64,000 bases of DNA from Solidesulfovibrio sp. GTDB lineage: Bacteria; Desulfobacterota; Desulfovibrionia; Desulfovibrionales; Desulfovibrionaceae. A program made the translations under genes and the position numbers. The notes under the pieces were generated by a model that saw nothing but the letters and a program-made list of their open reading frames with translations, was not told the origin of the DNA and did no database searches. This document shows positions 39,302 to 40,113 of this stretch, one piece after another (position 1 is the stretch's first letter; each line of letters starts with the position of its first letter). The stretch covers positions 62,001 to 126,000 of the forward strand of contig NZ_JBCFBA010000009.1 in NCBI RefSeq assembly GCF_038562415.1, in the 5' to 3' direction.

Positions 39302-39620
39302 CGGGCCGTCCCGGCCGTGGCGGCGCCGGAGGGACAAGGTTTTGTACCCGCTCCTTCGATTCGCCGGCCGTTGGGCCGGGCCGCCGGGGCTGGCTGCGGG
39401 ATGGCTCGGCGAGGTCGCTTTGCAATGCACTGTAATAAAAGTATTTTTCTTGAGAAGCGCAGAGGGTGCAAAATTTTGAACGGCGTTGGCCGGCTTTGGC
39501 CGGGAGGGTCAAAGCATTTGTACCGCCACGAACCCGTTTCCGGGCCAATCGCCGGGGCCAACGTGGAGATGGAATCGCCAATATCCTGAAATAGCTTGGG
39601 TTGCTGTGTATTGATCTGGT
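39302..39620. other. Non-coding stretch before the sigma-54 promoter
   Basis: This 319-base interval contains AT-rich islands but no convincing gene. A possible promoter pair TTGCAA/TATTTT (39420-39447, spacer 16) points right. CGTTGGCCGGCTTTGGCC and neighbouring repeats of GGCC are GC-rich but not a clear terminator. Confidence 0.4.
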
Positions 39621-39637
39621 TTGGCACGCCTGTTGCT
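39621..39637 (+). promoter_or_regulatory. Perfect sigma-54 promoter
   Basis: TTGGCACGCCTGTTGCT matches TGGCACGnnnnTTGCW at every defined position, with GG (39623-24) and GC (39635-36) 10 bases apart. Transcription would start near 39648. No credible protein-coding gene follows on this strand. Confidence 0.85.
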
Positions 39638-39647
39638 ATAGAGAAAA

Positions 39648-39780
39648 TATCCTTCCTCCGAAAAGGACATTTCCGAAAGCGGCCCCGGGATGGCGACCTG
39701 GGGCCGCTTTCTCGTTGTGGGGCGGGCAATGCCTTCCCTGGCGAAAAAAAAGGCCGTCCGGGTGACCGGGCGGCCTTTTG
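39648..39780 (+). ncRNA. Candidate sigma-54-dependent small RNA
   Basis: Starting about 12 bases after the perfect sigma-54 promoter, the transcript would contain tandem TCCGAAA words. It would then meet a 12-base perfect stem (GAAAGCGGCCCC, 39675-39686, with its complement 39700-39711) and a second stem (39751-39776) ending in TTTT. The expected length is about 65 nt or about 130 nt depending on the stop. The second hairpin also ends the convergent minus-strand gene. The small frame from 39690 (92 codons) has no good ribosome site and overlaps that gene antisense, so an RNA product is preferred. Confidence 0.5.
39744..39776 (-). terminator. Intrinsic terminator (minus strand, partly bidirectional)
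   Basis: An 11-base stem with one wobble (AGGCCGTCCGG/CCGGGCGGCCT) is followed on the minus strand by eight T. It lies 22 bases after the stop of the Cys-rich exported protein gene. Confidence 0.85.
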
Positions 39781-39798
39781 CCGTGGCTGGGGAAGCGG

Positions 39799-40113
39799 CT
39801 ACGGGGCCGGATGCTTGTTGCGGCAGGCCCGCTCCACGCCCCAGGCGTCCTCGTCGTGCTCGGCCGGGCCGAGGTTGCCGATCATGCAGTCCAGGGCGGG
39901 TTGGGAGTATTGGCGGCATTCCGGGGCCTTGGGGTCCTGGAAGCGGCATTTGCAGGCCCGGCGCATGAGCATGCCGCCATCGCGCGAAACGGCGCGCTTG
40001 GCATTGAGCATGACGCAGTCGGCATAGGTTTTCGGGCCGAAGGCCTGGGCTCCCGCCGTCGCGGCCATGCCGAGAAGGCACAGCAGGGCCGGCACGATGA
40101 TCCGGTAGCGCAT
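39799..40113 (-). CDS. Exported cysteine-rich hypothetical protein
   Basis: A 104-residue protein with a signal peptide (MRYRIIVPALLCLLGMAATAGA, likely cut after AQA). The mature part has six cysteines (YADCVML, ACKCRFQ, ECRQYS, LDCMIG, RACRNK), implying disulfide bonds in the periplasm. AAGGAGTCTCC precedes the ATG at 40113, and an intrinsic terminator follows. It stands alone between a small-RNA candidate and a TPR gene. Function unknown; the longer frame from 40206 is not supported. Confidence 0.7.
   Translation of the reverse strand: MRYRIIVPALLCLLGMAATAGAQAFGPKTYADCVMLNAKRAVSRDGGMLMRRACKCRFQDPKAPECRQYSQPALDCMIGNLGPAEHDEDAWGVERACRNKHPAP

Follow-up and report, generated by a model that had tools for sequence, protein, structure and literature searches.

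Predicted sigma-54-driven sibling small RNAs and their probable pairing with porin mRNAs in Desulfovibrionia

The 64 kb stretch of Solidesulfovibrio DNA analyzed here (the window) harbors a locus that probably encodes one of a set of sigma-54-driven sibling RNAs that pair with and repress the mRNAs of DESULF_POR1 porins. The RNA of this locus is predicted to be ~67 nt long and to act in trans, and the probability of this reading is put at roughly four in five. Its basis in the sequence consists of a promoter, upstream palindromes, a covarying hairpin, the copy number and spread of the RNA, and the co-variation of its 5′ end with porin sites. From these features we infer transcription, the direction of the effect (repression), a division of labor among the siblings, an activator and a signal. 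In the proposed mechanism, an enhancer-binding protein on the palindromes would activate the sigma-54 polymerase at the promoter, and the RNA would start near the first base of AUCCUUCCUCC and end at the terminator-type hairpin (Table 1). The 5′ end would pair with the ribosome-binding site of the porin mRNAs and most likely block their translation. The three copies in the genome of the window, which have different bases after a common seed, would be siblings with partly different porin preferences.

Promoter, hairpins and enhancer-like sites

The initial annotation described a complete match to the sigma-54 consensus that leads into two hairpins rather than a gene. The complete consensus is borne out, as the extended pattern TGGCACGN4TTGCT has one match in 64 kb with a mean of 0.01 expected (100 shuffles, one of which contains a match). 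A shorter promoter pattern with one mismatch allowed gives 4 matches in the window vs 5.67 expected; since these matches do not exceed expectation, only the full match is remarkable. The −24 and −12 elements are unchanged in all 13 aligned sequences, the window among them. The C of the −12 element is base 39636, which places the expected start at 39648-39649. A sigma-70-like site listed at 39621 is the sigma-54 site itself.

Table 1. Features of the RNA locus and its surroundings, in window coordinates
Feature	Coordinates	Strand	Remarks
Enhancer-like palindrome 1, GGGACAAGGTTTTGTACC	39331-39348		center ~309 bp upstream of predicted start; one mismatch to GGTACAAN4TTGTACC; kept in 13 aligned orthologous loci
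Enhancer-like palindrome 2, GGTGCAAAATTTTGAACG	39465-39482		center ~−175; 42 bp from palindrome 3; kept in aligned orthologous loci
Enhancer-like palindrome 3, GGTCAAAGCATTTGTACC	39507-39524		center ~−133; two consensus mismatches; kept in aligned orthologous loci
Sigma-54 promoter, TTGGCACGCCTGTTGCT	39621-39637	+	complete; −24 and −12 elements TTGGCAC and TTGCT
Predicted small RNA, ~67 nt	39649-39716	+	predicted start and end; invariant block from 39649; fold z −4.2; family model matches
Seed, AUCCUUCCUCC	39649-39659	+	complementary to porin ribosome-binding sites; here partly within a small predicted hairpin, 39650-39667
Terminator-type hairpin, conserved loop GGGAUGGCGACC	39675-39711	+	covariation, fold
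Second hairpin	39744-39779		A tract and T tract on opposite sides; outside the conserved RNA core
Convergent neighbor gene	39799-40113	−

Both hairpins are present as described, and the next plausible gene on the + strand, as read from the open reading frame list, begins ~1.7 kb downstream. The first contains a 12-bp perfect stem, GAAAGCGGCCCC/GGGGCCGCTTTC, which pairs 39675-39686 with 39700-39711. The segment 39649-39715 folds at −35.5 kcal/mol (z −4.2), and the longer read-through segment 39648-39782 at −78.6 kcal/mol (z −6.2). An earlier guess of a ~65 nt transcript agrees with the first hairpin. The second hairpin is probably a two-way terminator common to the RNA and the convergent gene. 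A terminator scan of the window lists neither hairpin; its two sites lie elsewhere and compare with 1.9 expected by chance. The product of the convergent gene is a small exported cysteine-rich protein with a weak likeness (26.3 bits against a cut-off of 65) to the four-cysteine family VF_A0006.

The word TCCGAAA, pointed out earlier as a tandem repeat, does occur twice (39657-39663 and 39672-39678). The repeat looks incidental rather than functional because the base preceding GAAA in the second copy varies among the 13 aligned sequences. A small protein from the open reading frame 39690-39968, which starts in the hairpin loop, is rejected because the stem covaries and the type C copies of the RNA (see below) lack the loop ATG. 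The aligned copies contain no conserved reading frame.

Upstream of the promoter, the orthologous loci carry three palindromes of the form GGTACAA-N4-TTGTACC, and other loci often carry two of the form GGTWCAA-N4-TTGWACC. The palindromes lie outside the RNA models, and 6 of the 88 upstream regions come from the genus in which the consensus was first read. At least 11 of the 14 half-site bases are found in 77 of these 88 regions vs 1.8% of block shuffles, and 64 regions contain two sites (each with at least 10/14). The two sites are spaced 39-43 bp apart in 14 and 51-53 bp apart in 40 of the 64 (54/64 in total), which corresponds to about four and five helical turns; when one region per genome is counted, 42 of 50 two-site regions have one of these spacings. 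In the genome of the window, all palindromes with no or one mismatch stand before RNA copies, as do four of the nine with up to two mismatches. The two-mismatch count alone is weak evidence because the reversed pattern, with up to two mismatches, gives 49 matches in the same genome. The palindromes are thus enhancer-like and, judged by their sequence and phasing, are candidate sites for an activator.

Siblings, conservation and spread of the RNA

In a search of 59 genomes, including that of the window, orthologues with E < 1e-19 are found among the matches listed in 12 of the 13 other genomes of the genus. The exception, a 69% complete genome (G001), holds other RNA copies. Outside the genus, the matches listed in this search mostly cover the second hairpin. 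The invariant block in the 13 aligned sequences begins at the predicted start, A39649, and reads AUCCUUCCUCCGAA. Eleven of these sequences have the hairpin loop GGGAUGGCGACC and two have GGGUUGGCGACC, and the stem varies.

The combination of promoter, 5′ end and covarying hairpin is present in two to five copies in each of the 14 genomes of the genus among the matches listed, with three copies in the genome of the window. The paralogues are divided into types A (the window), B and C, and one intermediate (L058). They have in common the promoter, the seed (U)CCUUCCUC and the hairpin, and they diverge after the seed and in the loop. These differences beside the seed may divide the porins among the copies.

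Covariation of the hairpin in relatives, proposed as a check in the initial annotation, is detected in an alignment of 33 sequences in which 98.2% of the hairpin cells pair. The covariation score is 0.636 vs 0.270 in shuffles (none of 500 reach it) and is at most 0.178 when the pairing is slid. On two of five covariation measures, the alignment does no better than shuffles: 11 of 15 pairs are changed on both sides vs 9.3 in shuffles (43 of 500 reach 11), and further pair types number 19 vs 20.7 (494 of 500 reach 19). The earlier reading of a short sigma-54-controlled RNA is supported by conservation from the predicted +1, the covarying hairpin, the enhancer-like sites upstream and the absence of a conserved frame among the aligned copies. 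The nitrogen- or stress-dependent control suggested with it is a guess.

Terminator loops usually drift. The loop at 39687-39699 is almost fixed, as GGGAUGGCGACC in types A and B and GGGUGGCUCCC in type C, and may be where a protein binds or where a second contact is made. CsrA binding at the GGA of the loop is not favored, as type C loops have no GGA.

Family models recognize relatives of the RNA widely across one class of sulfate reducers. Model R1 matches at least 159 of 247 genomes and at least 33 of 44 genera of the family, and model R2, built from 73 sequences, matches at least 244 of 297 genomes and at least 48 of 53 genera of the class. In a draw of 198 genomes from the phylum, 22 match, consisting of 7 from the family and 15 labeled as the same phylum (best of these 44.9 bits). 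Three genomes of one genus elsewhere in the phylum and outside the family (G338, G375 and G490, genus g71) give weak, consistent matches of 34-37 bits that may be real. Of a set of 23 matches, 19 loci were inspected, and five other families of the order contribute 14 of these. The promoter, a feature that the model itself favors, is present in all 19 loci, and a UUCCUCYUUUU stretch lies in the 5′ end in all 14 from the other families. Several genera contain two or three RNA copies in tandem. In six genera (one copy in g16), RNA copies have a set of neighbors in common that differs from that of the window: presumably genes for a Sua5/YrdC-like protein, a NUDIX protein and glycogen synthase.

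Porin sites and alternative readings

The seed is the complement of GGAGGAAGGAU. The pattern GAGGAAGGA-N1-9-ATG occurs 12 times in the genome of the window: at six porin gene starts, at two other open genes, one presumably NrdD-like and one encoding an exported protein, and at four sites leading into frames of 3 to 59 codons. The porin P0002 matches the NCBIfam model DESULF_POR1 (outer membrane homotrimeric porin) with E 3.6e-112, and the genome encodes 14 DESULF_POR1 porins. Six porins among 12 sites correspond to P ~2e-13 if 4500 genes are assumed. The longest match is 9-12 bases in seven of the 14 porins and only 5-8 in the other seven. Complementarity of the type A RNA to the porin at C18:49228 extends over 12 bases without a break; for five other porins, types A and B reach 10-12. 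Porin genes with the GAGGAAGGA site are found in tandem arrays of five (L197), four (L199) and two (L198). The within-genome count is weakened, though a test between genera is not, because porin paralogues may have inherited a common ribosome-binding site.

Such a test is provided by a swap of RNAs among genera, in which 58 porins from 16 genera were matched against the RNA 5′ ends of 25 genera and the genera were permuted 20,000 times. The porins come from 30 loci and 20 fetched regions taken from a longer list of porin matches; four loci with failed start calls (L233, L248, L249 and L269) and two partial hits (L252 and L253) are not included. The mean longest match is 10.2 with the RNA of the own genus vs 7.74 (sd 0.41) in permutations, and none of the 20,000 permutations reaches it; related genera are not independent, and these permutation counts are therefore not exact probabilities. 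Duplex energy likewise gives 0/20,000, as does an earlier, cruder score (mean over siblings, 27 nt). Individual genera vary: by the cruder score, the genus of the window (g1) ranks 18th and g53 21st of 25, and by the run score g14 ranks 17th and g17 13th of 25. Unbroken complementarity extends to 19 nt in G072 (in one of two porins examined, the second matching far less well), 17 in G124, 15 in G163, 13 in G095 and 12 in G242, and G028 has two blocks. The seed differs in other genera, as does the porin site. Sequence comparison across 16 genera thus indicates that the RNA 5′ ends and the porin sites have changed together.

A broader reading would make the CCUUCCUCC end of the RNA a general anti-Shine-Dalgarno element that acts on many mRNAs, of which the porins are merely the most visible. 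The likeness of the seed to the anti-Shine-Dalgarno sequence of 16S rRNA and the full site at the two non-porin genes are consistent with this reading, but 89 non-porin control genes (20 context stretches from 13 genera, with crude starts) show no genus-specific pairing (4.81 vs 4.90; 16,317/20,000). The porins of the genera common to the control set give 10.7 vs 7.7 (0/20,000), and in several genera the match continues far past the ribosome-binding core and takes in GCAAAA stretches in the leader of the porin, which makes a general element unlikely. The effect may also run in the reverse direction, with the RNA as an activator of porins or itself titrated by porin mRNAs. Pairing by itself gives no direction, and FoxJ of Fusobacterium is described as a small RNA of an envelope regulon that can activate mRNAs (PMC11005410). 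Repression is nevertheless favored because the paired bases cover the porin ribosome-binding site, 1-9 nt from the ATG in the sites searched, a position that normally blocks initiation; either reversed direction is accordingly considered very improbable.

The initial annotation also raised the idea that the transcript, if not stopped, would run antisense to the 3′ end of the convergent gene, and a terminated leader RNA without function in trans is a related reading. Eleven of 13 type A loci, that of the window among them, have a homologue of the convergent gene next to the RNA, as against none of 20 type B and C loci within the 2.6-4.2 kb examined, where the RNA persists. It persists as well in the copies of six other genera, which have quite different neighbors. 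The antisense idea is unnecessary because the second hairpin stands before the end of the convergent gene and the type B and C loci are without that gene in the stretch examined. Both hairpins end before the gene, and the 5′ end covaries with porin sites, leaving the leader and antisense readings with hardly any credibility. Trans-acting repression of porin mRNAs is the reading carried forward below.

Known systems, chaperone and activator

The best-known control of porins by base pairing is that of enterobacteria, where it is under sigma-E or OmpR. RybB uses its 5′ end for pairing, and both RybB and MicA are Hfq-dependent. The two are described as sigma-E-dependent small RNAs of Salmonella that lower omp mRNAs (PMC1804206). 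Like them, the RNAs predicted here are under an alternative sigma factor and would act on mRNAs of outer-membrane proteins; unlike them, they would depend on sigma-54 and an enhancer-binding protein, comprise several siblings, differ in sequence and host class, and occur where Hfq was not found. The sigma-54 promoters of the Qrr RNAs are under one activator, LuxO. Qrr1-5 of Vibrio harveyi are described as multiple sibling small RNAs (PMC2680268). Both systems have sibling copies with a common set of sigma-54 enhancer sites, which is a resemblance in wiring and not membership, and the targets differ, namely quorum sensing for Qrr and porins here. Rfam gives no match at gathering score in the window, and its 17 matches over 39500-39850 up to E 10 are all below thresholds and none is named Qrr.

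FoxI and FoxJ are said to have the FomA porin as a target in a host that reportedly has no Hfq. These RNAs of Fusobacterium nucleatum are described as envelope-linked and under sigma-E control (PMC11005410). They resemble the present RNAs as envelope-linked RNAs under an alternative sigma factor, and differ in the sigma factor (sigma-E) and the phylum. Closer in phylogeny, accounts of the sigma-54 regulome of D. vulgaris Hildenborough contain four ncRNAs that are each assigned to an activator of their own (DVU0653, DVU0679, DVU1419 and DVU2359) and whose function is given in those accounts only as post-transcriptional regulation or unknown (PMC4641369, PMC3333781). They belong to the same order and are likewise described with sigma-54 promoters and activator sites, but have four activators, and neither a sibling family nor a porin target figures in the portions of those accounts drawn on here. 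The four could include members of the RNA family described here, which would offer a possible function for such unexplained sigma-54 ncRNAs. In a computational survey of ncRNAs in O. alaskensis G20, the main text mentions neither "porin" nor "RpoN" (PMC11124144). Among the titles listed in literature searches on Desulfovibrio small RNAs with sigma-54/RpoN or porins, and on sigma-54-dependent small RNAs with porins, which covered few subscription papers, none describes such a system.

Dependence on Hfq is common among such small RNAs. The genome of the window has no match to the Hfq model TIGR02383, and the same search matches 5 of 14 control genomes, 4 of them over the cut-off; another RNA chaperone may take its place. 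The predicted system would extend porin control by base pairing to sulfate reducers, with sigma-54, several siblings and, in the genome examined, no detected Hfq. An evolutionary record of a small RNA-mRNA pair such as this co-variation of RNA and target over 16 genera is rare; it names the target directly and is therefore testable in culturable strains. Tentatively, and with somewhat less than even confidence, the class Desulfovibrionia may possess an ancient envelope circuit, built unlike the enterobacterial one, in which one dedicated sigma-54 activator has a regulon of sibling RNAs only and a large porin family is controlled without Hfq, with seeds that co-evolve with porin ribosome-binding sites across families.

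A candidate for the activator is the PAS-AAA-HTH sigma-54 activator P0001 of G095 (L110 7525-9036, − strand), which lies between or beside two RNA copies. G064, a relative of G095, is without the P0001 stretch at the corresponding place. An activator gene is otherwise not found in the RNA contexts examined, except for a partial match ~3.3 kb from an RNA copy in G080. P0001 is not adopted as the activator because, of the seven loci with P0001 matches among 320 searched, only L110 and L114 are RNA contexts. In the genome of the window, a partial match (L132) lies near a two-mismatch palindrome, which stands at the far end of the activator gene. The two genes beside P0001 in the G095 stretch are, by sequence, presumably transporter-like.
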